This document shows positions 38,543 through 56,452 of a stretch of 56,452 nt of DNA, one piece after another. A program made the translations under genes and the position numbers. This DNA comes from Sphingomonadaceae bacterium. GTDB taxonomy: Bacteria; Pseudomonadota; Alphaproteobacteria; Sphingomonadales; Sphingomonadaceae. The notes under the pieces are model-generated. The model saw only the letters and a list, made by a program, of their open reading frames with translations. It was not told the DNA's origin and searched no databases. The DNA lies in assembly GCA_947476425.1 (NCBI GenBank), contig CANJQJ010000017.1, positions 1-56,452 on the forward strand. The letters are read 5' to 3'. Position 1 is the stretch's first letter. The number at the start of each line of letters is the position of its first letter.

Positions 38543-39114
38543 TCGTCAGGCGTTTTCGTTCGGTTGGCTGGGTCGGATGCGTGGCCGTGGCCGCGCTCGG
38601 ATGCTATCTCGTGTCGCAGCGGGTGGCGAGCGAACGGGCCAGCGTCGAACAACTCGATCGCCGGATCGTGATGGCGCGTATCGATATCCGAAAGCTCCAG
38701 ACCGAACTCGGAACGCGAGGTCGAATGCCCGTCCTTGAGCAGTGGAATCGCGACGTTCTTGCCCTGTCCGCACCCTCGGCAGGCCAATATCTCCATGGCG
38801 AAGTCCAGCTCGCCAGCTTCGAGGTTTCCGCGGTGCCGCCGCCGGTCATTCGCCAGGTCTCGGCAAGCGCAGCGGATAGCGTTACCGCCAACGCGCCGAT
38901 GGCCGATGACGACCAGGCGCCTGCGATCCAGGCCGCGCCCGAGCAGCAGCCGGCACCTGCCCAGCCGATGTTGCGCCATGCCAATTACGAGAAGCCTGCC
39001 GGCAGTGCTTTTGCGGCCGACACGCATACCGTGGCGCTGCTTGACGATCATGCGCTTGCTGATCTCCAGCAGCTCGCTCGTCGCGAAAGACATGGATCGA
39101 AAAACGCACAGTGA
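38539..39114 (+). CDS. ftsL: Cell division protein FtsL
   Basis: A bitopic inner-membrane protein that joins FtsB and FtsQ in the divisome and activates FtsW-FtsI. The short cytoplasmic start (MIVRRFRS) is followed by one membrane helix (about 10-27) and a coiled-coil periplasmic segment ([20 protein letters not shown]). The remainder (about 95-191) is a long low-complexity Ala/Pro/Gln tail, longer than in E. coli (121 residues). It overlaps both neighbours by 4 bp. The assignment rests on position and topology more than on sequence. Confidence 0.88.
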
Positions 39115-40811
39115 CAGCATTGGTCGCCCGCCCCGCCCGCCAGCGTTTCGCGGGCCAGCGCGAGCAGGCAGTCGCGCTGGTACATTTCCGCCTGATGGTC
39201 GTAATGCTGATGTTCGCGGGGATTACCGCGGTCATTGCACTTCGTTTGGTCATGCTCTGGGCGTTTTCCGATCGCCCTTCAGGGGCCGACGCGTTGCATG
39301 GGCTGGTGCCTCCGCGAGCAGATCTGGTCGATCGCAATGGCGTGGTCCTGGCCGGAACGATCGATGCCTGGAAGATTGCTGTCCATCCCCAGAAGATCAT
39401 CGGCGATCGCGAGGCGATTGCGGTGCGGCTGGCGCAGTTGCTTCCGGAGCGCAGTCTCGATGTCTATCGCAGGATCCTGCATTCGCCGCGCAAGTTCATC
39501 TATCTGCGGCATGAAGCGCTCCCCGAGCTGGTGCAGGCCGTGAACGCGATCGGCGAGCCCGGTATCGTGTTCGAGCGCGAGACCCGGCGCTATTATCCGC
39601 AAGGATCGCTCGCCGCGCACGTCGTAGGCTGGACCGATCAGGACGGAAAGGCAGCCTCGGGCATGGAGCTGTCGCTCGACAAGCGGCTGCTCGATCCCTT
39701 GCGCCGCAATCGCGCGGTGGCGTTGTCGATCGACAGCCGTGTGCAGGCTGCGGTCGAGAGTGAGCTGATGGCTGCGATCACCAAGTTCAGTGCCCGCGCG
39801 GGTACCGGTATCGTACTTGACGTGCATACCGGCGAAGTGATCGCGATGGCTTCGCTGCCGTCGTTCGATCCGAATGCGCCAGCCAAGGCGCCGATCGCCA
39901 ATCTCGCCAATCAGGCAACCTTATCGGTCTATGAACTAGGCTCCACCTTCAAGGTCATCACCGTTGCCAACGCCATCGATAGCGGCGTCGTTACCGACAT
40001 GCACCGGCGCTTCGATGCGACCGAGCCGCTCCATATCGGTCGTTTCACGATTCACGACGACCATCCCCAGAGACGCTTCCTCGATGTTCCCGAGCTGCTC
40101 GTCTATTCGTCCAACATCGCGACCGCGCGTGTTGCCGACGAGGTCGGCATCGATCGCACCCGCGCGATGTTCCACAAACTCGGCTTCGATCGGCCTGTGG
40201 ATATCGAGCTGGGCGCACGCGGGCGTCCCTTGTGGCCGCAATTCTGGGCGCGCGTCACGAACATGACCGTCGCATATGGACATGGAATTGCGGTTACCCC
40301 GCTTCACCTCGCCAATGCCTACGCTTCGATTGCAAATGGCGGCATTTGGCGTCCGGCTACCTTAATGCGACGCGACCCCGACCAGATTCCGTCCGGTCGG
40401 CGCGTCATCTCGGCCGCGACCAGCGCCCGGATGCGCCAGTTGATGCGGCTCGTGGTGATGCAAGGTACGGGCAAGAATGCCGAGGTCGCGGGTTTCCGCA
40501 TCGGCGGCAAGACCGGCACGGCAGAAAAGCCGCATGGTGGCGGCTATCAGCGCAACGCACTGGTTTCGACTTTCGCCGCGGTTTTCCCGATGGACGCGCC
40601 GCGTTATGTAGTAGTTGCGATGCTTGATGAACCTCATGGAACTGTCGATACGGGGGGCTACGCGACCGCCGGAATGGTCGCGGCGCCAATCGTCGGCAAG
40701 ATTGTCGCGCGCGTCGGGCCGTTGCTTGGCGTGATTCCCGATGACCGCCGCGAAGTCGACATGACAGGGCTCGAGAATACGATCTGGAAACCCAAGGCGG
40801 ACAAGCACTGA
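39111..40811 (+). CDS. ftsI: Peptidoglycan transpeptidase FtsI (PBP3)
   Basis: Septal D,D-transpeptidase (class B penicillin-binding protein). After a cytoplasmic start with a membrane helix (about 30-50) comes the dimerisation domain. The penicillin-binding domain follows with active-site S278-T-F-K281, S333-S-N335 and K467-T-G469. All three motifs are intact. Length (566) is standard. GTG 39111 overlaps the ftsL stop. It works with FtsW (45967-47199), encoded six genes downstream. Confidence 0.96.
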   Translation: MTALVARPARQRFAGQREQAVALVHFRLMVVMLMFAGITAVIALRLVMLWAFSDRPSGADALHGLVPPRADLVDRNGVVLAGTIDAWKIAVHPQKIIGDREAIAVRLAQLLPERSLDVYRRILHSPRKFIYLRHEALPELVQAVNAIGEPGIVFERETRRYYPQGSLAAHVVGWTDQDGKAASGMELSLDKRLLDPLRRNRAVALSIDSRVQAAVESELMAAITKFSARAGTGIVLDVHTGEVIAMASLPSFDPNAPAKAPIANLANQATLSVYELGSTFKVITVANAIDSGVVTDMHRRFDATEPLHIGRFTIHDDHPQRRFLDVPELLVYSSNIATARVADEVGIDRTRAMFHKLGFDRPVDIELGARGRPLWPQFWARVTNMTVAYGHGIAVTPLHLANAYASIANGGIWRPATLMRRDPDQIPSGRRVISAATSARMRQLMRLVVMQGTGKNAEVAGFRIGGKTGTAEKPHGGGYQRNALVSTFAAVFPMDAPRYVVVAMLDEPHGTVDTGGYATAGMVAAPIVGKIVARVGPLLGVIPDDRREVDMTGLENTIWKPKADKH

Positions 40812-42241
40812 TGCGGCTAGGAACGTTGACCGGCGGTGATCTGCCAGCCCCGGCGCGGGACGCCGAAGTGACGGGTTTTGCTATCGACCACCGCAAGGTC
40901 GCGCGCGGTACAGTATTCGGAGCCTTCCGGGGTGGCCGCTTCAACGGCGAGGATTTTATTGCCGATGCTGTGGCAGCGGGCGCAGTGGCGGTGGTCGCTC
41001 GTCCCGAGGCTACCGTCGAAGGTGCGATCCATATCCCCGACGCCGAGCCACGTCGTGCCTTCGCAAGGTTGGCGGCGCGTTTCTTCGCTCCCTTCCCGAA
41101 GACCACCGTCGCGGTAACCGGCACCAACGGGAAGACTTCGACGGTCGAGATGACTCGTCAACTATGGCGCATGGCGGGCCACCACGCGGCCTCGATCGGC
41201 ACGCTTGGCGTCACCACCGCTGACGAGCAGGTCTCCACCGGACTGACCACACCCGATATCGTGACCTTCCTTTCCAACATGGCCGGGCTGGCGCGGGAAG
41301 GGGTGACCCACGCCGCCTTCGAGGCTTCCAGCCATGGGCTCTCGCAATATCGGACCGAGGGGCTGCCGGTCACCGCGGCCGCGTTCACCAACCTGAGCCG
41401 TGATCATCTCGACTATCACGGCACGATGGAGGCCTATCTCGAGGCCAAGCTCCGCCTGTTTACCGAAGTGGTCGACGGACACGGGACTGCGGTGATCTGG
41501 GCCGATGACGTTGCTTCCGCCCGCGTCGCCGAACTTGCGGTCGAGCGCGGCCTGAAGCTGATAACGGTCGGCGAGAGGGGCGAAACGCTTCGCCTCGTCG
41601 CGCGCGCGCCGACCCATCTCGGCCAGACCCTGACACTCGAAGCAGAGGGCATGACGCACATCGTCAACCTGCCGCTGATCGGCGCTTACCAGGCCGCCAA
41701 CGCGCTCACGGCAGTCGGGCTGGTGCTGGCGACTGGCGGCGTGCTTGGACAGACGCTCGGGGATCTCGCTCGCGTCCAGCCAGTGCGCGGCAGGCTCGAA
41801 CGGGCGGTCATCACGCACGGTGGCGCCCCGGTCTATGTCGACTATGCGCATACCCCGGATGGCCTGCGCGCCGCGATCGAAGCATTGCGGCCGCATGCGG
41901 AGGGTCGCCTGATCGTGGTATTCGGCGCTGGCGGTGATCGCGATACCGGCAAGCGCCCGGAAATGGGCAAGGTCGCGGTCGATCTCGCCGATCATGTCAT
42001 CGTGACCGACGATAATCCGCGTAGTGAGAATCCGGCAACAATTCGCAGGGATGTGTTGGCGGGAGCGCCCGGCGCAACGGAGATCGGCGGCCGTCGCGAT
42101 GCGATCGCGGCGGCGATTGCCGAGGCCGGGGTCGGCGATATCGTGCTGCTTGCGGGCAAGGGTCATGAACAAGGCCAGATTGTGGGGGATCGCGTCCTTC
42201 CATTCGACGACGTAAGCGTTGCGCGGGAGTGCGCGGCATGA
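40811..42241 (+). CDS. murE: UDP-MurNAc-L-Ala-D-Glu:meso-diaminopimelate ligase
   Basis: Adds the third residue of the stem peptide. The ATP-binding loop VTGTNGKTSTVEM is near residue 105. The signature VTDDNPRSENP, near 400, is the motif that selects meso-diaminopimelate over lysine, as expected for a Gram-negative cell. Length (476) is normal. It begins on the last base of the ftsI stop (TGATG) and overlaps murF by 4 bp. Confidence 0.96.
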   Translation: MRLGTLTGGDLPAPARDAEVTGFAIDHRKVARGTVFGAFRGGRFNGEDFIADAVAAGAVAVVARPEATVEGAIHIPDAEPRRAFARLAARFFAPFPKTTVAVTGTNGKTSTVEMTRQLWRMAGHHAASIGTLGVTTADEQVSTGLTTPDIVTFLSNMAGLAREGVTHAAFEASSHGLSQYRTEGLPVTAAAFTNLSRDHLDYHGTMEAYLEAKLRLFTEVVDGHGTAVIWADDVASARVAELAVERGLKLITVGERGETLRLVARAPTHLGQTLTLEAEGMTHIVNLPLIGAYQAANALTAVGLVLATGGVLGQTLGDLARVQPVRGRLERAVITHGGAPVYVDYAHTPDGLRAAIEALRPHAEGRLIVVFGAGGDRDTGKRPEMGKVAVDLADHVIVTDDNPRSENPATIRRDVLAGAPGATEIGGRRDAIAAAIAEAGVGDIVLLAGKGHEQGQIVGDRVLPFDDVSVARECAA

Positions 42242-43638
42242 GCCTCTGGACCTCCGCCGACATCGCCGAGGCCATCTCCGGCATCGCGCATGGCGCCTTC
42301 AACGCGAACGGGGTCGCCTTCGATTCGCGCGAGGTCGGATCGGGGGATCTCTTCATTGCGCTCAAGGGCGAGGCCACCGACGGACATCGTTTCATCGACA
42401 AGGCGTTTGCGAGCGGTGCGGCGGGCGCGATCGTCAGCGAGGCGATCGATCATCCGCATGTCCGGGTCGGCGATACGATGGCTGCGCTCGAGTCACTCGG
42501 CGCCGCCAGCCGGGCCCGAAGCCGCGCTCGCATCGTCGGTGTCACCGGATCGGTCGGCAAGACCGGGACGAAGGAGGCGCTCTTCGCTGCGTTCGACCGG
42601 ATCGCGCCGGGCTTCGCCCACCGCTCGGTCAAGAGCTACAATAACCACACCGGCGTGCCGCTGAGCCTCGCGCGGATGCCGGCCGCCAGTCGCTACGGTA
42701 TTTTCGAAATGGGCATGAGCCACGCCGGCGAACTGGCAGCGCTTACGCGGCTCGTGCGCCCCCATGTCGCCGTGGTGACGGCAATCGCGCCCGCCCACGC
42801 GGCCTATTTTCCTGACGAAGCGGCGATCGCCGATGCCAAGGGCGAGATTTTCGAGGGGCTGGAGCCCGACGGATTTGCGATCATTCCACACGATAGCCCG
42901 CATCGCGATCGTCTTGTCGCCGCAGCACGTCCTTATGCAGGGCGCATTTTGACATTCGGCAGGGGCGAGGGCGCGGACGTCCATGTTCGCGAGGAAATGC
43001 CGATGGAGGCGGGCGGGACGATGCTCAGCATCGATCTGCCGAATTCCGAGCTTACCTTCACGCTCTCGCAGCCCGGCGAGCATTGGGTATCGAATGCGCT
43101 CGCGGTACTTGCCGTGGTCGACGTGCTGGGAGGGGATATTGCGGCAGCCGGAGTCGCGCTCGCCGATATGGAAGGACTTCCGGGACGCGGGGCACGACGC
43201 GATGCCGCCTTTGGCGATGGTCAAATACGGATCATCGACGAAAGCTATAACGCCAACCCCGCCTCGATGACGGCGACGCTCAAGCAGCTTGGTCGCGAAC
43301 CTGGTGCGCGACGAGTGGCGATTCTTGGCGAGATGCGCGAACTTGGGGAAAGTTCGCCGCGCTATCATGCGGATCTGGCGCAGCCGATACTGGATGCGGG
43401 CGTGGATGCGGCACTTCTGGTCGGCACCGACATGGGCTTCCTCGCCGAGAGGCTTGAGGGAAAGGTCGAAGTCCGCCATGTGCCCGACGCCACGGCCGCG
43501 CGTGATTCGCTCCCAAGCTTCCTCGCGCCCGGCGACGTGATATTGATAAAAGGGTCCAACGCCATCGGGCTTGGCGGCCTGGTTCAGGCGCTTTGCGCAG
43601 GCCAGTTCGCGAGCGGAAAGACGACATGCTCTACTTGA
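42238..43638 (+). CDS. murF: UDP-MurNAc-tripeptide:D-Ala-D-Ala ligase
   Basis: Adds D-Ala-D-Ala to give UDP-MurNAc-pentapeptide. The ATP loop [14 protein letters not shown] (about 103-116) and [14 protein letters not shown] identify it. The later [12 protein letters not shown]-type segment reads [15 protein letters not shown]. Length is 466. ATG 42238 forms an ATGA overlap with murE. The 3' end overlaps mraY by 13 bp. Confidence 0.96.
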
Positions 43639-44696
43639 TCGCCGAACAGCTCGGATTTCCGGGCCTGTTGAACCTTATCCGCTATATCACCTTCCGTGCG
43701 GGCGGAGCCGTAGCCACGGCGCTGTTCATCGGCATGATGATCGGACCTCGCTTCATCGGTTGGCTGCGTGTTCGCCAGGGCAAGGGCCAGCCGATCCGCG
43801 ACGACGGCCCCAAGTCGCATCTTGCAAAGGCCGGGACGCCGACGATGGGCGGCCTGATGATCCTCACCGCGGTTACGATCTCGATGCTGTTGTGGATGGA
43901 TCTCCACAATCGCTTCACCTGGGCCTGCATGTTGGTGATGCTCGGCTTCGGTGCGATCGGCTTCATGGACGACTACGACAAGGTCACCAAGCGCAGCCAC
44001 AAGGGCGTTTCGGGTAGAGTCCGGCTGGCGGCGGAATTCCTGGTCGGCGGCCTCGCAACCTGGATCATTCTCGGCGGCGGCAACAGCCACCTCTATCTGC
44101 CCTTCGTCAACGGCCCGGTGATGGATCTCGGGCTGTTCTACATATTGTTCGGCGCGTTCATCATCGCTGGCTTCGGCAATGCGGTGAACCTTACCGATGG
44201 CCTCGATGGCCTTGCCACCATGCCAGTGGTGATCGCGTCGCTGGCGCTTTTCGTGATCGCCTATCTTACCGGTAACGCGAAGTTCGCCACCTATCTCGGC
44301 ATTCCGCACGTGCCCGGCGCCGGCGACCTGACCATATTATGCGCCGCCATCATCGGTGGCGGCTTGGCCTTCCTCTGGTTCAACGCGCCGCCAGCCGCAG
44401 TCTTCATGGGCGATACCGGCAGCCTGGCACTTGGCGGTGCTCTTGGTGCGATCGCGGTGGTTGCGCACCATGAGATCGTGCTGCTCATCATCGGCGGCCT
44501 GTTCGTGCTCGAGACGGTTTCGGTGATCCTCCAGGTCTTCTTCTACAAGCGAACGGGGAGGCGAATCTTCCGCATGGCGCCTATCCACCACCATTTCGAA
44601 CAGCTTGGCTGGTCCGAGCCCACGGTTGTGATCCGCTTCTGGATCATCAGTTTCGTGCTCGCGCTCGCCGGGCTGGCGACTCTCAAGCTGCGGTGA
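43626..44696 (+). CDS. mraY: Phospho-MurNAc-pentapeptide transferase MraY
   Basis: Inner-membrane enzyme that makes lipid I from UDP-MurNAc-pentapeptide and undecaprenyl phosphate. About ten hydrophobic segments are visible. Catalytic-site motifs are GFMDDYDKV (the aspartate pair), [13 protein letters not shown], and the C-terminal [14 protein letters not shown] (the histidine cluster). Length (356) is standard. It starts inside the last codons of murF. Confidence 0.97.
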
Positions 44697-45970
44697 TCAC
44701 GAGCCCCGCCTTTCGCGGCAAACGCTATGCGGTGATCGGATTGGCGCGCTCGGGCCTGGCGACGGTCGACGCGCTGCTGGCAAGCGGTGCCGAAATCGTC
44801 GCCTGGGACAGCAAGGAAGAGGCGCGTGCGGCGGTTGCCGACCGAGTGACGATTGCCGATCCGCTCACGATCGATCTTGCCGGTTTCGATGCAGTGATCG
44901 TCACGCCCGGCCTACCGCTCAACCGCCATCCGATCGTTGCCAACGCCGCCGCGGCAGGCGTGCCGATAATTGGCGACATCGAGTTGTTCGCGCAGGCGCG
45001 GCCCTCGTTGCCGCAGCATCGCGTGATCGGCATTACCGGCACCAACGGCAAATCGACGACGACCGCGCTGATCCACCATATCATCGAGACCGCGGGCATT
45101 CCCACATTGCTGGGCGGGAATATCGGGCTTCCGATCCTTGGCCGGGATCCGCTGCCGGCGAACGGTATCTATGTTCTCGAATTGTCGAGCTATCAGATCG
45201 ATCTCACCCGCAGCCTCGATTGTGACGTTGCGGTGCTGCTCAACGTCACTCCGGATCATCTCGATCGCTATGATGGCTTCGACGGCTATGCGGCCTCCAA
45301 GGCACGGCTTTTCGCGATGCAGTCGGCAGGGCATGTCGCTGTGGTTGCGACCGAGGACGATGAGACCCGGCGGATCGCGAAGACCGTGAAGACGCTCGTC
45401 GAAGCAAGATCGTCCAGCATCACCGATCAATCCGCCTGGCCGGCATTGCAGGGACCGCATAACGCCCAGAACGCAGCCGTTGCAATCGCGACCGCACGCA
45501 CGATCGGCATTGCCGAGGATGCGATAGCCGAAGGATTGAAAAGCTATCCCGGGCTGCCGCACCGCATGGAGCGCGTGAAAGAGCGCAACGGCGTACTGTT
45601 CGTCAACGATAGCAAGGCGACCAACCCGAGCTCCTCAAGCTTCGCACTGGCATCATATCCGGCGATCCATTGGATCCTCGGCGGATTGCCCAAGGGGGAT
45701 CGGCTGGATGAATGCGCACCGATGTTCAGCCATGTTCGCGCCGCCTATGTGATCGGCGAGGCGGCTCCGGTGTTTGCGAAGCTGCTCGAAGAAGCCGGCA
45801 AGCCGGTCACGATCAGCCTTACCCTGGACCAGGCCGTGCGCGATGCGGCCGCAGCCGCCAAGTCGGGCGACGTCGTCCTTCTTTCGCCCGCATGCGCAAG
45901 CTTCGATCAGTTCCGCGACTATGAATCGCGCGGTGATTCGTTCCGGGCAGCCGTGGAGGCGCTCGCATGA
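44693..45970 (+). CDS. murD: UDP-MurNAc-L-Ala:D-glutamate ligase
   Basis: Adds D-glutamate, the second residue of the stem peptide. It carries the N-terminal UDP-binding Rossmann segment ([10 protein letters not shown]), the ATP loop [13 protein letters not shown] near residue 115 and [11 protein letters not shown] near 303. Length (425) is slightly shorter than in E. coli (438). GTG 44693 overlaps the mraY stop (GTGA). Confidence 0.95.
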
Positions 45971-47199
45971 CGGTTGACGAAAAGACCGCGCCTCCCAAGC
46001 CAGCGGCCATCCCAGTCCGGCGCAAGCGAAAAGCCGGCGCCGCACGCCTTGGTCGCGCGGATCGTTCGCCGCTCGGCACCTGGTTCTGGGAAATCGATCG
46101 AGTCCTCTTGCTGCTCGTCCTCGTGCTGATCTCGATCGGGCTTGTCGCCGTGGCGGCCGCATCGCCGGCGGCTACCGAGCGTTATTCGAACGGTGCTTAT
46201 CAGCTTGCGCCGCTCCATTATTTCTATCGTCAGGCGATGTGGATCGCGATCGCCCTGCCGACCTTGATCTTCGTCTCGATGTTGCCGAAGGAAGTCGCCC
46301 GCCGGCTCGCGCTCTCCGGCGCTACATTCTTCTTCGTGATGCTGGTGATGGTGCCGCTGATCGGTAGCGAAGTGAATGGCGCCAAGCGCTGGATCGGCGT
46401 CGGCTTCATGCAGTTCCAGCCCTCCGAATTTCTGAAGCCGCTGTTCGTGGTGATGATCGCATGGCTGCTGTCGTTGCGGTCCCGCGATGCGTCGCTGCCG
46501 GTCGTGCCACTGACCGGTGTGATCCTCGCGGTGGTTGCTGCCCTGTTGATGCGCCAGCCCGATTTCGGCCAGACGGTGATCTTCGCGTCGGTGTGGATAG
46601 CGTTGTTGATGTTGAGTGGCGTTTCGATGCGCATTCTCGCATGGCTCGGTGCGGCAGGCGTCGGGTGTGTCGTCGCTGCCTATATGTTCTATTCGGTCGC
46701 GACCGAACGCATCAACAATTTCCTGTTCGCCCAAGGTGATACCTACCAGACTGACCGTGCCTTCGATACGATGGTGAACGGGGGCCTGATGGGGACCGGG
46801 CCGGGCGCGGGGACGATGAAGTTCCGCCTTCCCGAACCCCATACCGATTATATCTTCTCGGTGATCGGCGAGGAGTTTGGGCTGATCTCTTGCCTTGCGA
46901 TCGCAGTCCTCTACCTCGCGATCGTCGTCCGCGTGTTCGTTCGGCTGCTTCACGAGGAGGATGAGTTCCTGTTGCTCGCATCGGCGGGCCTCGTCACGGA
47001 ATTCGGGCTGCAGGCGCTCATCAACATGATGGTCAACGTCCAGTTGGCTCCATCGAAGGGCATGACCTTGCCCTTCATCAGCTATGGCGGCTCGTCGATG
47101 GTCGCGTTGTCGATCGGGATGGGACTGCTGCTGGCCTTTACGCGATCCAACCCCTATCTGACGCGCTCGCCCTATGTGGTGAAATGGAGCGGTCGATGA
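45967..47199 (+). CDS. ftsW: Peptidoglycan glycosyltransferase FtsW
   Basis: A SEDS-family membrane protein that polymerises lipid II at the septum together with FtsI. After a basic, Pro-rich N-terminus (1-45) there are about ten membrane helices. Conserved family stretches include NGAKRWI, QPSEFLKP, and LMGTGPGAG followed by PEPHTDYIFSVIGEE. The C-terminal part has LPFISYGGSSM. Length is 410. It overlaps murD and murG by 4 bp each. Confidence 0.96.
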   Translation: MTVDEKTAPPKPAAIPVRRKRKAGAARLGRADRSPLGTWFWEIDRVLLLLVLVLISIGLVAVAAASPAATERYSNGAYQLAPLHYFYRQAMWIAIALPTLIFVSMLPKEVARRLALSGATFFFVMLVMVPLIGSEVNGAKRWIGVGFMQFQPSEFLKPLFVVMIAWLLSLRSRDASLPVVPLTGVILAVVAALLMRQPDFGQTVIFASVWIALLMLSGVSMRILAWLGAAGVGCVVAAYMFYSVATERINNFLFAQGDTYQTDRAFDTMVNGGLMGTGPGAGTMKFRLPEPHTDYIFSVIGEEFGLISCLAIAVLYLAIVVRVFVRLLHEEDEFLLLASAGLVTEFGLQALINMMVNVQLAPSKGMTLPFISYGGSSMVALSIGMGLLLAFTRSNPYLTRSPYVVKWSGR

Positions 47200-48350
47200 C
47201 CATGAAACGGCATTTTGTCCTCGCCGCCGGGGGAACCGGGGGGCACATGATTCCCGCCCACGCGCTGGCGGCGGAGCTGATGCGACGTGGCCATCGCGTC
47301 GCGCTGGTTACAGACGAGCGCGGCGAGCGCATTCCGGGCCTGTTCGAAGGCGTGCAAACGCACGTCCTGCCGGCGGGTCGAGTTGCGGGCGGACCGCTCG
47401 GCTGGCTGCGCGCCGTGCGCGAAATACTCCAGGGTCGCGAGCGCGCTCGTCGGCTCTACGAGGCATTCCAGCCCGCAGCGGTCGTCGGCTTCGGCGGCTA
47501 TCCCGCGCTGCCGTCGTTGCTTGCCGCACGTGCAGAGCGAATCCCGATGATGCTTCACGAGCAGAATGCGGTTCTCGGGCGCACAAACCGCTTTCTTGCC
47601 GGCAAGGTCGATGCGATCGCGACGGCCTATCCCGATATTCGCCGTCTCAAGGGGCGCCATCTCGACAAGGTCGCGCTGGTCGGCAATCCCGTGCGCGACG
47701 AGGTGCGGATGCTCCGCGAGACGCCTTATCCAACGCTGCTTCCCGACGGTATCTTCCGCATTCTCGTCACCGGCGGCAGCCAGGGCGCCTCGGTATTGTC
47801 CGAAGTTGTGCCCGAAGCCCTCGGTATGATGCCGCTGACTTTTCGGCGGCGCATGCAGGTCACCCAGCAATGCCGGCCCGAGGATATCGAGGCCGTTCGC
47901 GAACGCTATTCGGCGCTTGGCATCCCGGCTGATCTGGCGACCTACCTCCCGGATCTGCCGGCTCGGCTGGGCTGGTCTCATCTCGTCATCGGGCGCGCGG
48001 GCGCATCGACGATTGCCGAGCTGACAGTTGTCGGGCGCCCCGCGATCCTCGTGCCCTATCCGTCGGCGACCGACGATCATCAGACCTATAACGCGCGGGA
48101 AATGGTCTCGACGGGCGGGGCGCGCTGCATCCAGCAACGCCATTTCACCGCGATCGAGCTTGCCAAGCAGATGCAGAAGCTCGCGCTCGATCCTGCCGCA
48201 TTGATGAATGCAGCCGCATGCTCGCGCAGGATCGGACGCCCCGACGCCGCCGAGCGGCTGGCCGATCTCGTCGAGAAAATCGGGCAGACGCCGGTGATGG
48301 ATGAAATCGGTTCTGCCGAATCCGTACAACTCAAGGGAGCCTTCGCATGA
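47196..48350 (+). CDS. murG: UDP-GlcNAc:lipid I N-acetylglucosaminyltransferase
   Basis: A GT-B enzyme on the cytoplasmic membrane face that converts lipid I to lipid II. The N-terminal glycine loop [16 protein letters not shown] is at about 7-22. [14 protein letters not shown] and [12 protein letters not shown] follow, and the second-domain loop is [13 protein letters not shown]. Length is 384. I prefer ATG 47196, which makes an ATGA overlap with ftsW; an ATG at 47184 is also in frame. Confidence 0.96.
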
Positions 48351-49753
48351 GGGGTGTCGCTACCGACATCGGCACGATCCATTTCATCGGTATCGGCGGC
48401 ATCGGCATGTCCGGCATCGCCGAGGTGATGCATAATCTCGGCTACAAGGTGCAGGGCAGCGATGTTGCCGAAGGCTATGTCATCGAGGGACTCCGCAAGC
48501 GCGGGATTGCCGTATCGATCGGGCACAAGGCGGAAAATCTGGGCGATGCCGCCGTTGTCGTGACCTCCACTGCGATCAAGCGCGGAAATCCCGAGGTCGA
48601 GCTTGCGCTCGAAAAGCGGATTCCCGTCGTTCGCCGCGCCGAGATGCTCGCCGAACTCATGCGGCTGAAGTCGACCGTGGCGATTGCGGGTACGCATGGC
48701 AAGACGACCACGACGTCGATGGTGGCGGCGTTGCTCGATGCGGGCGGGGTCGATCCGACCGTGATCAACGGCGGTATCATCAACAGCTACGGATCCAATG
48801 CCCGCCTCGGCGCGTCCGACTGGATGGTGGTCGAGGCCGATGAGAGCGACGGCAGCTTCCTGCGCCTCGACGGCACGATCGCCGTCGTGACCAATATCGA
48901 TCCCGAGCATCTCGATCATTACGGCAGCTTCGACAAGGTCAAGGATGCCTTTGTCGAGTTCGTCGAGAACGTGCCCTTCTACGGTGCGGCATTGCTTTGT
49001 ATCGATCATCCGGAAGTCCAGGCGCTGATCCCGCGCGTGCGCGATCGCCGGGTGGTGACCTATGGCTTTTCCGCGCAGGCCGATGTGCGTGGCGAGCATG
49101 TCACGCCGGTCCCCGGCGGGAATCGCTTCGACACCGTGATACGCCAGCGCGATGGATCGTTTCGCCGCATCGAGGGCATCGAAATGCCGATGCCGGGCCG
49201 TCACAATGTCCAGAACGCACTCGCCGCAATCGGGGTCGCGCTCGAAATGGGCATCACCGACGAGGTCATCCAGACCGGCTTCGCGAAATTCGGGGGGGTC
49301 AAGCGGCGCTTCACCAAGGTCGGCGAAGTGGCCGGCGCGACAGTGATCGACGATTATGGCCACCACCCGGTGGAAATCAAGGCGGTGCTCGCCGCCGCCC
49401 GGGAGGGTTGCAGGGGACGCGTGATCGCAGTCGTCCAGCCCCACCGTTTCACCCGGTTGCGCGATCTGATGAACGAATTCCAGACCGCGTTCAACGATGC
49501 CGACATCGTCTATGTCACGCCCGTCTATCCGGCCGGCGAGTCCCCGATAGAGGGTGTCGATGCCGCTGCGCTGGTCAAGGGGCTGAAGCAACGCGGTCAT
49601 CGCGCGGCGCAGACCATCGAAGGTGCTGACGCGCTTGCCGATACGCTTGCCGGTGTGATCGCGGACGGCGACATGATAATCTGCCTTGGAGCTGGGGACA
49701 TCACCAAGTGGGCGGCGGGGCTGGCGCCGGCCATTCAGCAGAGGAAGGCTTGA
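48347..49753 (+). CDS. murC: UDP-MurNAc:L-alanine ligase
   Basis: Adds L-alanine, the first residue of the stem peptide. The N-terminal UDP site is [16 protein letters not shown], the ATP loop [15 protein letters not shown] (about 110-124), and [10 protein letters not shown] marks the family. The C-terminal domain includes [13 protein letters not shown]. Length (468) is normal. It overlaps murG by 4 bp. It is followed after 2 bp by a 65-codon gene, not directly by murB. Confidence 0.96.
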
Positions 49754-49755
49754 AG

Positions 49756-49953
49756 ATGAGCGATCCGTTCGTTGCCTGGAAAGTCCTGCAGGACAATCTT
49801 CTCGCGTTGCAGAAGGCACAGGTCGAAGCTGCGATGCGGCTGCTGCCGCGTAGCGAACATTTTGAAGGTGCTGCAAAGGCCGCGCAGGAAATAGCCGAAG
49901 TCAATGGCAAGGCGTGGGAGACCTGGATGGGAATTTGGGGTTTCCGCAAATAA
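49756..49953 (+). CDS. Small uncharacterised protein within the dcw operon
   Basis: 65 residues, beginning MSDPFVAWKVLQDNLLALQK and ending WETWMGIWGFRK. No signal peptide or membrane helix is evident. It looks like one or two amphipathic helices rich in Ala, Gln, Leu and Glu with four tryptophans; the C-terminal WETWMGIWGF is aromatic and could bind a membrane surface or protein. It sits 2 bp after murC, and its stop TAA shares a base with the murB ATG (TAATG), so it is embedded in the coupled series and is almost surely translated. I recognise no family. A small divisome- or Mur-associated protein is one guess from position only. Confidence 0.75.
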   Translation: MSDPFVAWKVLQDNLLALQKAQVEAAMRLLPRSEHFEGAAKAAQEIAEVNGKAWETWMGIWGFRK

Positions 49954-50915
49954 TGACCCATGCTGCCTCCACCCCGGCGATTCCGAGCTCAACCGAGGAA
50001 CTTGCCTCGCATGCGCCACATACGGACGGGGCGGGGGTGCCTCCACTCAGGGGCACGGTTGAAGCCGGCGGTTCGTTGGCCGAGTTCATTTGGTTTCGCA
50101 CCGGCGGGGCAGCGCAATGGCTTGTCCGCCCGGTCGATGTTGCGGATCTCTCGTCCTTCGTCGGCGCGCTCGATCCCGCGATACCGGTTTTTCCGGTTGG
50201 CGTCGGCTCCAACCTTATCGTGCGCGATGGCGGGATCGAGGGCGTTGCGGTGCGCCTGCCAAAATTCTTCGCGCGGGTGGGGATTGAACCCGGAAACCGC
50301 GTCCGCGCCGGCGGGGCGGCGATGGGCATAACAGTTGCCAGCGCAGCCCGCGATGCCGGTATTGCCGGCCTGGAATTTCTGCGTGGGATACCCGGCACGG
50401 TCGGCGGCGCGGTGAAGATGAATGCCGGCGCCTATGGGCGCGACACCAGCAACATATTGATCGAGGCAAAGCTGGTGCTGCGCGATGGCACCGTCGAAAC
50501 CTGGCCCGCGGCTCGGCTCGGCTACACTTATCGGCATTCGGCGATTCCCGAAGGCGCGATCGTCGTCGAGGCATTGTTCGAGGGCATGCCGGGCGATCCG
50601 GTTGCGATCGGTGCGGAGATGGATCGCATAGCCAGCGAGCGCGAGGCCTCGCAGCCGCTTCGTTCGCGCACCGGCGGTTCGACCTTCAAGAATCCCGAGG
50701 GACACAAGGCCTGGCAACTGATCGACGAGGCCGGCTGCCGTGGCCTGAGGATCGGTGACGCGCAGGTTTCCGAGAAGCATTGCAACTTCCTGCTCAACAT
50801 GGGCAAGGCGAGTTCAGCGGATATCGAGGCATTGGGCGAGGAAGTGCGACGCAGGGTGAAGGAAAAGAGCGGCGTGACGCTGGAGTGGGAAATCCAGCGG
50901 GTGGGGAAGGCATGA
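49953..50915 (+). CDS. murB: UDP-N-acetylenolpyruvoylglucosamine reductase
   Basis: Reduces UDP-GlcNAc-enolpyruvate to UDP-MurNAc using FAD and NADPH. The FAD-binding part shows FIWFRTGGAAQWL, VGVGSNLIVRDGG and FLRGIPGTVGGAVKMNAGAY. The catalytic serine lies in RTGGSTFKNPEG, and the last block is VSEKHCNFLLNMG. Length is 320, with an N-terminal extension of about 45 residues of low complexity. ATG 49953 overlaps the preceding stop by one base; an upstream in-frame start is antisense-free but less likely. It overlaps ddl by 4 bp. Confidence 0.95.
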   Translation: MTHAASTPAIPSSTEELASHAPHTDGAGVPPLRGTVEAGGSLAEFIWFRTGGAAQWLVRPVDVADLSSFVGALDPAIPVFPVGVGSNLIVRDGGIEGVAVRLPKFFARVGIEPGNRVRAGGAAMGITVASAARDAGIAGLEFLRGIPGTVGGAVKMNAGAYGRDTSNILIEAKLVLRDGTVETWPAARLGYTYRHSAIPEGAIVVEALFEGMPGDPVAIGAEMDRIASEREASQPLRSRTGGSTFKNPEGHKAWQLIDEAGCRGLRIGDAQVSEKHCNFLLNMGKASSADIEALGEEVRRRVKEKSGVTLEWEIQRVGKA

Positions 50916-51826
50916 GTTTGCATATTGTCGTATTGATGGGTGGCTGGTCTTCGGAACGCGCGGTTTCGCTCGTTTCGGGCGCAGGCGTCGCCGATGCGCT
51001 CGAAAGCCTTGGCCATCGCGTCACCCGTATCGACATGGGCCGCGATGTCGCGCTTCGCATCGCCGAGGCGGCGCCCGACCTTGTCTTCAACGCGCTCCAC
51101 GGCACGCCGGGCGAGGATGGTTCGGTGCAGGGCATGCTCGACCTGATGGGCATTCCCTACACGCATAGCGGCCTCGCGACCTCGGTGATCGCAATCGACA
51201 AGCAGCTTACCAAGCATGAGCTCGTCCCGGCGGGCATCCCGATGCCCGAAGGCGTCGTCGTGGCGAGCGAGAGCCTTTATCAAGGCGATCCGATCCCCCG
51301 GCCTTTTGTGTTGAAGCCAGTCAACGAAGGCAGCTCGGTCGGCGTCGCGATCGTCACTGAAGGCGGTAATTACGGCAATCCGATCGCACGGGATTCCGAA
51401 GGGCCCTGGCAGCATTTCGACAAGCTCCTTGCCGAGCCCTTCATTCGCGGCCGCGAACTTACCGTTGCGGTGCTTGGCGACGAAGCGCTCGCCGTTACCG
51501 AGCTCAAGCCCAAGAGCGGCTTTTATGATTATGACGCGAAATATACCGATGGGCTGACCGATCATGTCTGCCCCGCAGAAATTCCCGACGACGTTGCCGA
51601 GCGCGCGCTGGCGCTGGCGCTGGCGGCGCATCGCAAGCTCGGATGTCGCGGCGCCTCGCGATCGGATTTTCGATGGGACGACAACAAGGGGATCGACGGC
51701 CTCTTCCTGCTTGAGGTCAACACCCAGCCGGGAATGACCCCGCTCAGCCTCGTTCCCGAGCAGGGGCGTTATCGGGGACTGGCCTATGCCGAGCTCGTCC
51801 AGCGTATCGTGGAGGAAGCATTGTGA
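50912..51826 (+). CDS. ddl: D-alanine:D-alanine ligase
   Basis: An ATP-grasp enzyme making the D-Ala-D-Ala dipeptide used by MurF. The N-terminal part has LMGGWSSERAVSLVSG and NALHGTPGEDGSVQG. The central lobe has KPVNEGSSVGV and the metal-binding end has LLEVNTQPGMTPLSLVPEQ. Length (304) is normal. ATG 50912 forms an ATGA overlap with murB, and the stop overlaps ftsQ. Confidence 0.96.
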   Translation: MSLHIVVLMGGWSSERAVSLVSGAGVADALESLGHRVTRIDMGRDVALRIAEAAPDLVFNALHGTPGEDGSVQGMLDLMGIPYTHSGLATSVIAIDKQLTKHELVPAGIPMPEGVVVASESLYQGDPIPRPFVLKPVNEGSSVGVAIVTEGGNYGNPIARDSEGPWQHFDKLLAEPFIRGRELTVAVLGDEALAVTELKPKSGFYDYDAKYTDGLTDHVCPAEIPDDVAERALALALAAHRKLGCRGASRSDFRWDDNKGIDGLFLLEVNTQPGMTPLSLVPEQGRYRGLAYAELVQRIVEEAL

Positions 51827-52752
51827 GCAGCCGCGTCAGGATCAAGCGCGGCGGAAGTACCCCGCGCCGCAGGCCGCCCACGGTCACCAAGCGACGCAAG
51901 GGCGCCCCTCGCGGACCCTCGACAGCGGCGCAGGCGCTTGCGACGATCCCGGTCCGCCAGGAAACCCTGAAGCGCGCTGGCAACTACATGCTTGGCGCCA
52001 TCATCGCAGCGGCGATCGCCACCGGCGTGATCGCGATGCAGCTCCCGCAGATGATCGGCACTGAATTGGGCGAGGCCGTCGGCGCGATTGGCTTCACCGT
52101 TCGCAACATCGAGGTTCATGGCCGCGACCAGATGGATCGCGACGCGGTGATCAATATCGCGATGGACCAGAAGTCACGCGCAATGCCGCTCGTGGATCTC
52201 GAGGAAACCCGCCAGCGCCTGCGCCAACTTGGCTGGGTCGCCGATGCGCGCGTGTCGCGCCGACTGCCCGATACGCTGGTCGTCGATATCGTCGAGCGTC
52301 GCCCGACCGCGATCTGGCAATTTCACCAGCAGCTAGCACTCATCGACCAGAAGGGCGTCGTGATCGCGCCGGTTTCGATCTCCGCGATGCCCGACCTGCC
52401 GATCGTCATCGGCCCGGGTGCGAACCAGCGAGTCGATGCGCTCAATGCGCTGATGCAACAGGTGCCCGCGCTCAAGCCGATGCTTGCCGGGGCAAGCTGG
52501 GTCGGCGAACGGCGCTGGGATCTGCGCTTCCAATCTGGCGAAGTGCTCGCTTTGCCCGAGGGCGAGGCGGCGTCGATCGCAGCGCTCAAGGATTTCGCGC
52601 GCCGCGATTCGCAATATCGCCTGCTCGGCCAGGGCTTCGTGCGCTTCGACATGCGCGTGCCCGGCCGTATCGTGGTCCGAGTTTCGCGCGAGCCCGGCCG
52701 CAGCATTACCGACGATGCGGTGGCTGCAGCTGCCGACATGAAAAAAATCTAG
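51823..52752 (+). CDS. ftsQ: Cell division protein FtsQ
   Basis: A bitopic protein that bridges early and late divisome components through FtsB and FtsL. The basic cytoplasmic tail is long (about 1-50: RIKRGGSTPRRRPPTVTKRR), then one membrane helix (about 52-72). The POTRA domain starts VRNIEVHGRDQMDRDAV, and the FtsQ domain has GWVADARVSRRLPDTLVV. Length is 309. GTG 51823 overlaps the ddl stop. It precedes ftsA by 14 bp, one of the only two non-overlapping junctions of the operon. Confidence 0.93.
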   Translation: MSSRVRIKRGGSTPRRRPPTVTKRRKGAPRGPSTAAQALATIPVRQETLKRAGNYMLGAIIAAAIATGVIAMQLPQMIGTELGEAVGAIGFTVRNIEVHGRDQMDRDAVINIAMDQKSRAMPLVDLEETRQRLRQLGWVADARVSRRLPDTLVVDIVERRPTAIWQFHQQLALIDQKGVVIAPVSISAMPDLPIVIGPGANQRVDALNALMQQVPALKPMLAGASWVGERRWDLRFQSGEVLALPEGEAASIAALKDFARRDSQYRLLGQGFVRFDMRVPGRIVVRVSREPGRSITDDAVAAAADMKKI

Positions 52753-52766
52753 GCCGGAGGGAAGCT

Positions 52767-54029
52767 ATGGCGCAGCACCGCAATGACGACCTCATCACCG
52801 CGCTCGATATCGGATCCTCCAAGGTCTGTGCGCTGATCGCCCGGATCGGCGAAGGCGACGAAATCGAGGTGCTTGGCACCGGCCAGCGCGAAAGCAAGGG
52901 CGTCCAGCGGGGCTATGTCTCCGATATGGAGGGCACGGAAAATGCCATTCGCGAGGCGGTCGAGCAGGCCGAGCGGATGGCGAACACGAACATCGAGAAG
53001 GTCTGGGTCAGCTTTTCGGCCGGCGGGCTGGTGAGCGACATCGCCTCGGTCGAGGTGGATATCGGCGGGTATCGCATCGAGCAGACCGATATCGACGAAT
53101 TGCTCGCCGCTGGTCGCGGATCGATCGATCCCGAGGGGCGAATGGTGCTGCACGCCCAGCCGACGCTCTACACGCTCGATGGCTTGCGTGGCGTGAAGAC
53201 GCCGCTTGGTCTCCATGCCGATCGGCTTGGGGTCGACATCCATGTTGTCGCGGCCGAGCCGTCGCCGGTGCGCAACCTCGACCTGTGCGTCAGGCGTGCG
53301 CATCTCGCGGTGAAGTCGATCGTCGCTGCGCCGATCGCGACCGGCATGGCGTGCCTTTCGGAAGAAGAACGCGAACTCGGCGTGGCGCTGGTCGAACTGG
53401 GTGCCGGCGTCACAAACGTCTCGCTGTTCGCGGGTGGCGTGCTCGTCGGGCTCGCCTCGATCCCCACCGGCAGTTCCGACATCACCGACGATATTTCGTC
53501 CGCCTTTGGAACGCGCCGCGCGCAGGCTGAACGGATGAAATGCTTTCACGGCTCGGCGACGGCGAGCCCGCGCGACAATCACGACATGATCGAGGTCGCT
53601 CCGATCAGCGGCGAGGAAGATAGTGGCGAACCCACGCGCATCACGCGGGCGCAGCTGATCGCGGTGATCCGCCAGCGGCTCGATCACTGGTTCGGCCAGA
53701 TTGCGAACGCGCTCGATTCGCTTGGCTTCTCGGGCCCGGTCGGTCGTCAAGTCGTCCTCACCGGTGGCGGTGCGGAACTCAAGGGCATCGCCGATTACGC
53801 CCAGGGCCTGCTTGGCCGCTCGGTCCGAATCGGCCGGCCGCGCGGACTTGTCGGGCTCCCCGAGGCGCATAGCGGGCCAGCCTTCGCTACACTCGCCGGG
53901 CTGATCCAGTTTGCCGCATCCGATCCGATCGACCTGCGCACGCCGATGCCCAACGACCAGACGATCGTGCGGCCGGTGGGCGGCAATCTCGTGCAGCGCC
54001 TGATCTCGGCATTTCGCAGCGGATATTGA
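52767..54029 (+). CDS. ftsA: Cell division protein FtsA
   Basis: An actin-like ATPase that tethers FtsZ to the membrane. The phosphate-1 motif is ALDIGSSKVCALIA (about 11-24), the 1C domain follows, and the second phosphate region is LVELGAGVTNVSLFAGG. The adenosine motif is VVLTGGGAELKGI. The C-terminal membrane-targeting helix LVQRLISAFRSGY is intact. ATG 52767 follows GGAGGGA. Its usual partner ftsZ is not downstream; the next gene is NDUFA12 after 65 bp. Confidence 0.96.
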   Translation: MAQHRNDDLITALDIGSSKVCALIARIGEGDEIEVLGTGQRESKGVQRGYVSDMEGTENAIREAVEQAERMANTNIEKVWVSFSAGGLVSDIASVEVDIGGYRIEQTDIDELLAAGRGSIDPEGRMVLHAQPTLYTLDGLRGVKTPLGLHADRLGVDIHVVAAEPSPVRNLDLCVRRAHLAVKSIVAAPIATGMACLSEEERELGVALVELGAGVTNVSLFAGGVLVGLASIPTGSSDITDDISSAFGTRRAQAERMKCFHGSATASPRDNHDMIEVAPISGEEDSGEPTRITRAQLIAVIRQRLDHWFGQIANALDSLGFSGPVGRQVVLTGGGAELKGIADYAQGLLGRSVRIGRPRGLVGLPEAHSGPAFATLAGLIQFAASDPIDLRTPMPNDQTIVRPVGGNLVQRLISAFRSGY

Positions 54030-54094
54030 GATTGCCCGGGCGGATTTCCGATCTCCCGGTTGCCTCGTCCAACATGACCCGCTAGGTGGCAATC

Positions 54095-54490
54095 ATGGGC
54101 CTCTTGATGAAGATCTTCACCTGGTGGGACGGTGCCACCATCGGAACCGCGCTCTGGAGCGCACGCAATGGCGTGCGCGTGGGCGAGGATGCCGAGGGCA
54201 ATGTCTATAGCGAGGCCAAGAAGGTCGATCCCTGGCTCGGCTATAAGCGCCGCTGGGTGATCTATAATGGCCCCAACGACGCAAGCCGCGTGCCGCCCGA
54301 GTGGCATGGCTGGCTGCATCACCAGGTCGATGGCCGTCCGGATGAATCGCTTCCTCCGCAGCGGATCTGGGAAAAGCCCCCTGTGCCAAATCTCACCGGT
54401 TCGCGCGAAGCCTATCGTCCTGCCGGGGCTCTCGAGGCAGGCGGTGTCCGCGCGCCTGCGACGGGCGACTATGAGGCGTGGGTTCCTTAA
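54095..54490 (+). CDS. NADH:ubiquinone oxidoreductase subunit NDUFA12-like
   Basis: 131 residues, homologous to the mitochondrial complex I accessory subunit NDUFA12 (B17.2), which is found in alphaproteobacteria. The family hallmarks are MKIFTWWDGATIGTALWSAR near the N-terminus, WVIYNGPNDASRVPPEWHGW, and the tail WEKPPVPNLTGS. It supports complex I assembly or stability; the core nuo genes are elsewhere. ATG 54095 follows TAGGTGG; an ATG at 54107 is possible. It begins the likely unit NDUFA12-mlaD-DUF2155. Confidence 0.9.
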   Translation: MGLLMKIFTWWDGATIGTALWSARNGVRVGEDAEGNVYSEAKKVDPWLGYKRRWVIYNGPNDASRVPPEWHGWLHHQVDGRPDESLPPQRIWEKPPVPNLTGSREAYRPAGALEAGGVRAPATGDYEAWVP

Positions 54491-54509
54491 AAATGGGATG
54501 CCCTGAATC

Positions 54510-54989
54510 ATGAAGGGGCTGTTTCGCGAAAATGCGGGCGAAGCCCTGGTCGGCCTGCTGGTCGTGCTGCTGGCGATCTGGTTTGCGTGGTTCGCCTGGA
54601 CTCAGACCGGCGGCGGCGTGAAATCCGGCGCGGTCCGGGTTATGGCGATCTTTCCGAACATCACCGGCATTAATGTCGGCACCGACGTGCGCGTTGCCGG
54701 GCTCAAGGTCGGTACTGTCGTCGAACAGGAGCTCGATCCGTCGAGCTACCAGGTCAAGGTTACGCTCGCGCTCGATCCCAAGGTCAGGATTCCAGCGGAC
54801 AGCAGTGCGGCGGTGACGTCCGAGGGCCTGCTTGGCGGAAGCTATGTGGCGCTGCTTCCCGGTGGTGCGCCGACGCCGCTCAAGGCGGGCGATACCATCA
54901 CCGATACCCAGGGTGCGGTCGACATGATGAGCCTGATGGGCCAGTTCATCAACCGGTCGGGCGATAGCCACGCAACGGCGAAGCCGTGA
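54510..54989 (+). CDS. mlaD: MlaD family lipid-transport substrate-binding protein
   Basis: The substrate-binding component of the Mla phospholipid pathway between the membranes. One membrane helix (about 12-30, ALVGLLVVLLAIWFAWFAW) is followed by an MCE domain (about 38-125) with NVGTDVRVAGLKVGTV and GLLGGSYVALLPG. The tail is short and includes MMSLMGQFINR. Length (159) is typical of bacterial MlaD. The Mla ATPase and permease genes are not in the window, so the pathway is split in this genome. Confidence 0.9.
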   Translation: MKGLFRENAGEALVGLLVVLLAIWFAWFAWTQTGGGVKSGAVRVMAIFPNITGINVGTDVRVAGLKVGTVVEQELDPSSYQVKVTLALDPKVRIPADSSAAVTSEGLLGGSYVALLPGGAPTPLKAGDTITDTQGAVDMMSLMGQFINRSGDSHATAKP

Positions 54990-55642
54990 AGCGCGCGCTC
55001 ACCGTCGGGTTGCTGCTGGCTGGCCTCGCCGGGCTCGGGGCGGCGGTTGCCTTCCAGAACGAAACCACGACGCCACCACCGGCCAATGGCGGCGAAACCG
55101 CCGCTCCCCCGCCTGCCGATGGCGATGCGGTTGCCGGCAAGCCTGCCGAAGCCAAGCCCGCTGCGCCCGATTTTTCCGGCGCGGCGGTCACTCCGATGAA
55201 GGATCGAGTCGCGGTCCTCGGGCTGCTCAACAAGCGCAACGGTTTGTGGCGTGATCTGACGCTCAAGCCGGGGCAGGCGGTTCGCGTCGGCGATGTCGTC
55301 ATACGCTTGCGCGCCTGCGAGCAGACCGCGCCGTGGGAGCAGCAGAAGCTGACGGGCGCTTTCGTTCAAACCGACGTGCGTGATGCGGGTGGCACCTGGC
55401 GGCGCGTATTCTCGGGCTGGCTGTTCAAGGAATCGCCTTCGCTCAACGTCGTCGAGCATCCGATCTACGATGTGTGGCCCAAGAGCTGCACGATGCGATA
55501 TCCCGATATCGGGCCCGACACCGTGCGGGCGTCCTCGGTGACTGCCACCCGTTCGAGCGCGAAAAAATCAGCCGACGAGGCCGATACCCCGGACGTTGCG
55601 CCGGTCGAGACCCCAAGCGCGGTATCGAGCAACCCGACATAA
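54986..55642 (+). CDS. DUF2155 domain-containing exported protein
   Basis: 218 residues: a signal peptide ([23 protein letters not shown]), a Pro/Ala-rich linker (about 27-65), then the DUF2155 domain with [28 protein letters not shown], and the end [12 protein letters not shown] 50-residue Ser/Ala tail follows. The function of the domain is unknown; it is confined mainly to alphaproteobacteria. GTG 54986 overlaps the mlaD stop (GTGA). Its last 178 bp are antisense to the 3' end of aat. Confidence 0.87.
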
Positions 55643-56184
55643 TCGTCGCGGTCGATCTCGATCGCGCCAAGCGATGCGAGATGTTCGGTGATGAACTGGC
55701 AATCCAGCAGCCGGAAGCTCCCGACCCTGAGGCGCGCCACCAGCCAGGCTAGGGCGACCTTCGATGCATCGCGAACGCGGCTGAACATGCTTTCGCCGAA
55801 GAAGGCGGCACCCATCTTTACGCCGTAAAGCCCGCCGACCATCTCGCCGTCCTGCCAACATTCGATCGAATGGGCGTGGCCGCGGCGGTAGAGTTCGGCA
55901 TAAGCCAGCTCGATATCGCGATTGATCCAGGTGTCAGGCCGATCCGGCGTGGACTCGGCGCAATGTCGCACGGTTTCGGAAAAGGCGCAGTCCGCCGTGA
56001 CGGTGAAGCGGTCCGAACGAACGGTCTTGGCGAGCGAGTGCGAGAGGTGGAAGCCGTCGAGCGGCATCACCCCGCGTTTTCGGGGTTCGACCCAGAATAT
56101 TTCATTGGCGCGCCGGCTATCGGCCATTGGGAACACGCCAACGGAATAGGCTCTTAGCAGGAGATCAGGGTCCAGAGTCGACAC
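55465..56184 (-). CDS. aat: Leucyl/phenylalanyl-tRNA-protein transferase
   Basis: Transfers Leu or Phe from tRNA to N-terminal Lys or Arg of proteins, marking them for ClpAP (N-end rule). Typical blocks: [53 protein letters not shown], and [19 protein letters not shown] prefer GTG 56184, which matches the family N-terminus; TTG 56202 gives six more residues, and neither has a strong ribosome binding site. The C-terminal [18 protein letters not shown] fits relatives, which supports the antisense overlap with DUF2155 as real. Confidence 0.93.
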
Positions 56185-56185
56185 A

Positions 56186-56202
56186 TTGCGATGATATCGC
56201 AA
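56186..56202. promoter_or_regulatory. 17-bp palindrome at the aat start
   Basis: TTGCGAT-GAT-ATCGCAA is a perfect inverted repeat with a 3-bp spacer, directly before the preferred GTG of aat. It could be an operator or an RNA hairpin blocking the start. If TTG 56202 is used, it would be coding. Confidence 0.35.
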
Positions 56203-56267
56203 TTATCGGTCGGTGCTAAGGGGTTTGGACGCTGATTTGGAGGTGAATCGTTATCTCTTCCAGTCCC

Positions 56268-56317
56268 GCTCATCCTGAGGAGCCATTGAGCTCGTCGAAA
56301 TGGCGTCTCGTAGGACG
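56268..56317. repeat. Sphingomonad-type hairpin repeat beside the right IS
   Basis: The words CTCATCCTGAGGAGCCATTG and GAGCTCGTCGAAATGGCGTC, then TCGTAGGACG, match a dispersed repeat I know from sphingomonad genomes. The arms pair (TCCT with AGGA, CCATT with AATGG). No other copy was found in the window. The IS inserted 11 bp beyond it. Confidence 0.6.
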
Positions 56318-56328
56318 GCCGCGCTTAG

Positions 56329-56452
56329 CCCGGATTATTCACCGAGGCCTTGCTGAAGGGTTGGCGGGAGTGGCTTAAAGCACTGACTTGATGTAGGAAG
56401 TTGGGTGTCTAGACCAGCCCCACAGCGAGGCACAAAATGCCACAAGCGACCC
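56329..56452 (+). mobile_element. End of an IS1380-like insertion sequence (right copy, partial)
   Basis: Exact reverse complement of 22-145, starting CCCGGATTATTCACCGAGGC. Host sequence before it is TTAG (56325-56328). The left copy has TTAA next to its end, and the two flanks read YTAA outward from the element, which suggests a shared target preference. The element continues off the window. Both copies show the same (transposase 5') end facing inward, so they are in opposite orientation on the chromosome or are joined to different neighbours. Confidence 0.75.
56437..56452 (+). CDS. Transposase, first five codons (partial at window edge)
   Basis: ATG 56437 opens the frame MPQAT, identical to the start of the left copy, then the window ends. 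Confidence 0.45.

Follow-up and report, generated by a model that had tools for sequence, protein, structure and literature searches.

A putative lineage-specific small protein encoded between murC and murB in Sphingomonadaceae

Between murC and murB of a Sphingomonadaceae bacterium lies a short open reading frame (ORF) whose 65-amino-acid product poses two questions: is it a real protein, and does its place in a tightly packed wall-synthesis operon reflect a function in cell-wall synthesis or division? The window, i.e., the whole stretch of DNA that was analysed (56,452 nt), had been interpreted before from its letters, and this sequence-only reading assigned the ORF to the coupled dcw series, recognised no known family in it and proposed it as a candidate for a small wall or division factor. 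Location and frame were given correctly, as were the 2-bp gap after murC and the one-base overlap with murB: the murC stop codon TGA (49751-49753) is followed after 2 nt by the ATG at 49756, and the stop codon TAA (49951-49953) has one base in common with the murB ATG, which starts at 49953. The four tryptophan residues (W8, W54, W57, and W61) were also correctly described, the last three being clustered C-terminally within WETWMGIW. The locus comprises the following features:

48347..49753, plus strand: murC, the upstream neighbour in the coupled series (NCBIfam TIGR01082, E=1.7e-159)
49735..49755, plus strand: translation start region of the small ORF, overlapping the 3' end of murC; AGAGGAAGG lies at 49740-49748
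49756..49953, plus strand: small ORF, 65-aa product with predicted helices 4-29 and 34-61, a turn between them, and the C-terminal patch W54/W57/W61/G62
49953..50915, plus strand: murB (NCBIfam NF010480, E=4.6e-110), whose ATG overlaps the stop codon of the small ORF by one base

On the minus strand, a 596-codon open frame (48086-49876) runs antisense to murG and murC and into the small ORF; this long frame probably results from GC-rich codon usage. Farther downstream, ftsA (52767-54029) stands without ftsZ after it; the region up to 56202 holds NDUFA12-like, mlaD-like, and aat genes as judged by eye, and the single ftsZ match of the genome lies on another contig (G000:C8:33273-34223).

The 65-aa protein (P0001) served as query against 298 genomes of the window's family, its own included, and gave matches at E<=0.01 in 27 of them, the window's genome among these. 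All except one are located between murC and murB (26/27); the exception (L026), on a 3.1-kb locus without murC or murB, was excluded. With a profile built from these 26 rows (A2), 63 of the 298 genomes were matched at E<=0.1, and all 30 matches with E<=8.8e-7 again lie between murC and murB. From the A2 matches, 33 were accepted, namely the first 26 and those in G272, G143, G230, G189, G075, G127, and G050; the last three are weaker (E 3.3e-5 to 0.0017), and for them the location between murC and murB was itself used for acceptance. The matches in the remaining 30 genomes are weak and were left out, part of them having been inspected. Judged by eye from their translations, four recurrent weak profile matches in frames of 123-141 aa represent a different type of protein, and two more are helicase-like proteins of about 820 aa. 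A 33-row profile (A3), applied to 246 genomes of the order, yielded 16 matches at E<=0.01, all within the window's family: seven new members at the site, seven already known, and two weak matches in helicase-like genes. Each of the 14 matches with E<=1.2e-11, among them the seven new ones, sits in the murC-murB interval. In total, 40 members including that of the window were aligned (A6), all from the window's family, and two of them belong to records that bear a Sphingomonas name (Sphingomonas solaris and an uncultured Sphingomonas). In the window's genome, single-sequence and 33-row profile searches found no other copy at E<=10.

The protein appears to be under purifying selection in its own reading frame, dN/dS being 0.02-0.31 in all 17 within-genus pairs, which were drawn from 16 sequences and are thus not independent. 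Summed over seven pairs without a common sequence, 51, 24, and 123 changes fall on codon positions 1, 2, and 3, respectively. Chance ORFs are common in GC-rich DNA, and positions 38000-56452 are overlapped by 140 ORFs that reach 50 aa or more, so a spurious frame had to be considered; since the homologues share one site and dN/dS is low, this explanation is already refuted and hardly credible, the more so in view of the third-position bias of the changes and of invariant residues. Homologues at the same position, proposed earlier as a check, and purifying selection, the absence of which had been named as a refutation, were thus both found, and the comparisons make it almost certain that a hitherto undescribed, genuine protein-coding gene resides in the cell-wall cluster.

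The members are 55 to 72 aa long, the larger length changes falling in the predicted turn and the adjoining helix ends. Although identity to the window's protein drops to as low as 14%, W57 and W61 are invariant in 40/40 members, and every member has a hydrophobic residue at positions 11 and 23; position 5 is Phe in 30, position 12 Gln in 35, position 53 Ala in 33, and position 54 Trp in 30. No known family was matched by P0001 in Pfam and NCBIfam even at E<=5, which bears out the earlier statement for this protein in these two libraries. Searches with more members gave chance-level matches at best, namely E 0.015 in Pfam (26 members), 0.0089 in NCBIfam (40 members), and 0.0055 in PHROGs (40 members; an Rz-like spanin, matched by two), and no family or model was matched by more than two members in any of them. 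A PDB sequence search returned only matches at E>=3.2, and a PDB fold search with the predicted model had a best match of E=2.6. By sequence and predicted structure, the family thus seems to be new to these libraries. Among the titles retrieved in a literature search, none pointed to an account of this gene between murC and murB or to ribosome profiling of small proteins in Sphingomonadales.

For the three-dimensional structure, AlphaFold2 with three sequences as input predicted helices 4-29 and 34-61 (mean pLDDT 68.8, pTM 0.37), and we consider an antiparallel helical hairpin probable. From the residue numbering, F5 and W8 would adjoin W57 and W61 at the open end of such a hairpin, and the invariant tryptophans may serve merely to hold it together. 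The amphipathic character ascribed earlier to the protein holds for the second helix, which exceeds shuffled sequences (p<0.05) in 35 of the 40 rows, and not for the first, for which the same measure was passed in 5/40 rows (window p=0.30). Charged and polar residues are spread along both helices, whose mean hydrophobicity is 0.15-0.16.

On the murC side, measured from the murC stop, the start of the gene lies at -4 in 29 copies, at -1 in seven, at -8 in two, at +2 in one (the window), and at +118 in one, i.e., within -8 to +2 nt in 39/40. On the murB side, an in-frame start is found -4 to +2 nt from the ORF stop in 32/40 copies when the nearest in-frame ATG, GTG, or TTG is taken, a rule biased to short distances; in the other eight copies, the distances are -7 to -37, +19, and +174. 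The first residues of MurB are variable, as the alignments of most relatives begin near residue 29. Since most copies overlap murC and, by the nearest-start rule, murB, the junctions probably couple translation of the ORF to both neighbours, in line with the coupled series of the sequence-only reading. Pairing with the 16S tail upstream of the small ORF is slightly above shuffled sequences (mean z -0.66, n=40) and modest in the window (duplex -8.1 kcal/mol, z -0.5), whereas no ribosome-binding signal above shuffles is seen upstream of murB in the 40 copies (mean z -0.18); re-initiation would therefore be the likelier route.

Within the family, the small ORF was detected at the site in 33/298 genomes, a count of detected copies, since one too divergent to be matched by the profile may escape in junctions that were not read. 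When A2 was applied to 289 genomes of the class, the best E value apart from the window was 5.9e-4, and none of the loci (1.7-3.1 kb) around the 19 weak matches contained a match to murC, murB, or another dcw gene. Outside the family, we took the best 42 MurC scores among the 129 genomes with a MurC match, minus two, leaving 40 genomes from 40 alphaproteobacterial families; murB is next to murC in all of them, the MurB alignment beginning at -34 to 106 nt relative to the murC stop, and no junction contains a profile match to the small protein. Seven of 60 junctions read within the family contain the small gene and 53 lack it; the gap is at most 80 nt in 44 of the latter and 107-178 nt in nine, five of which contain a CCTGAGCnnnGTCGAAGG-type inverted repeat or a closely similar one. 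Such palindromic repeats or a close variant were seen in the gene-less junctions L074, L087, L088, L089, and L114 and also in L024; in one genome (G224) a repeat of this type stands beside the small ORF, and the window contains no match to it.

Presence is patchy even within genera. A MurC tree was built from 38 of the 40 carriers, two outgroups, and 38 of the 53 non-carriers, the latter being close ones rather than a random choice. On this tree, presence and absence require 20 changes, at least 13 of them forced by well-supported branches; this count does not separate gain from loss. A direction is suggested in one case: the carrier G224 and G293 have murC and the same inverted repeat in common, and before murB of G293 there is a short stretch like the start of the ORF (GIVFQGGV versus GFIAFQEEV), a probable decayed remnant of the gene. 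We prefer a history in which the gene was acquired once within the family and then lost many times, in part perhaps through recombination. As the protein is absent from close relatives, it is not needed for viability there, and very probably it is a dispensable accessory rather than a core division factor. The expectation that a position in a conserved operon marks a general wall or division factor is thus not supported, the gene having been found in one family only and there in 33 of 298 genomes, with at least 13 changes of state on the MurC tree. By its fixed site, its absence from that site in the 40 other families examined, and its purifying selection, the protein is, as far as sequence comparison can tell, a lineage-specific one embedded in the dcw operon.

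A quick MurB tree of 131 rows (136 found minus three duplicates and two short ones) divides the family loci (the window and 90 others) into two main clades of 25 rows, including the window's, and 63, with three rows apart. Genera g29, g22, and g44 are divided on both the MurB and the MurC tree; g94, g32, and g91 are divided between the MurB clades and united on the MurC tree, which suggests that murB has been exchanged.

As to function, the reading we favour, with a probability of about 0.4, is that of a clade-specific, optional helper in the cytosol, produced in concert with MurC and MurB. Its translation would be coupled to that of murC and the ribosomes then passed on to murB, as the junctions suggest; the chain would fold into an antiparallel two-helix hairpin in which W57 and W61 lie close to the open end, next to F5 and W8 of the N-terminus, and, perhaps self-associating, might bind a partner via this tryptophan patch. 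Most plausibly, the partner would be MurC or MurB, or else a component of the membrane or divisome, and the effect would consist in adjusting the cytosolic precursor steps rather than in carrying out an essential one. It is the position of the gene that points to an action on MurC, MurB, or the wall pathway, which we hold at somewhat less than even odds; an operon location can reflect expression merely and not shared function. A more specific version, in which the dispensable, clade-specific protein, produced alongside MurC and MurB through start/stop coupling at both ends, is a regulator or scaffold of cytosolic peptidoglycan precursor synthesis whose tryptophan-clamped hairpin docks MurC and MurB together or to the membrane or division machinery, is rather doubtful. 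Of the earlier interpretation, homologues at the same position, selection, and coupled-looking junctions were thus borne out, and any role in wall synthesis or division would be accessory at most.

Two alternatives compete with the helper. The gene could be a hitchhiker with an unrelated job, e.g., as a regulator or as a stress or surface-active helical protein, that uses the dcw location for steady expression; this is a possible explanation and nearly as likely as the favoured one. It would agree with the patchy presence within genera and with the fact that most examined genomes have murC and murB without the small ORF. Distances of the small protein show no clear correlation with those of MurC (r=0.12, p=0.09) or MurB (r=-0.01, p=0.51) in 33 of the 40 genomes, but this is a weak test of little power, since distances between the small proteins approach saturation (median 0.65) and even MurB and MurC in the same 33 genomes reach only r=0.12 (p=0.07). 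A free-standing function would, however, be expected to relocate sometimes, whereas every strong profile match sits at the one site (30/30 and 14/14 at the thresholds given above) and the window's genome has no second copy. Alternatively, the main effect could be translational, the cistron setting the flow of ribosomes from murC into murB, with the peptide as such of little importance, as the start/stop overlaps at both ends of most copies and the missing ribosome-binding signal of murB might suggest. This is unlikely: conservation at the protein level besides the junctions, with low dN/dS and tryptophans invariant in all 40 members, disfavours translational tuning alone, and murB usually follows closely behind murC in gene-less genomes (gap <=80 nt in 44/53), so that coupling does not require the small ORF.

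The optional helper, if it modulates MurC or MurB, would add a level of control, specific to the lineage, over wall precursors in the cytosol; if the gene is only a hitchhiker, it would show clearly how an optional gene can be gained and lost between conserved wall genes that stay unbroken. Either way, an unmodelled protein family is added at a sensitive place within a tightly packed wall-synthesis operon, and natural presence/absence pairs among close relatives make the question of function testable by comparison.

Among known systems, phasins are helical in character, and Phasin_2 proteins (PF09361) resemble the small protein in being small and probably helical; they are found in 17 of 20 genomes of the same order. 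A divergent member of such a helical family, e.g., of the phasins or the PhaM granule proteins, would fit the general look of a Gln/Ala-rich protein with a predicted helical hairpin, the touch of PhaM (NF043076) on 1/40 members at E=0.02, and the phasin match elsewhere in the window's genome. We nevertheless regard this as very improbable. Profile comparison (hhalign) with phasins, represented by 14 of 20 phasin loci fetched, the window genome's own included, gave a probability of 0.3% over 8 columns and thus no sequence relation; any one Pfam or NCBIfam model is matched by two members at most; and the phasin match in the window's genome is a separate gene on contig C12. Phasin_2 is absent from the 12 Pfam families matched by 26 members at E<=1, and the likeness to PhaM in its single member is weaker than other chance-level matches in the same list. 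The dcw cluster and the divisome also comprise small coiled-coil proteins of cell division, FtsL/FtsB and ZapA/ZapB, and as generally described they share with the small protein its size, helicity, and place in a wall and division cluster; none of these families is among the Pfam matches of the 26 members. A bitopic protein like FtsL/FtsB is not indicated, since the low mean hydrophobicity of the helices (0.15-0.16) and their charged and polar residues leave no visible transmembrane stretch. Unlike FtsL/FtsB and ZapA/ZapB, the small protein was detected in a minority of the genomes of one family.
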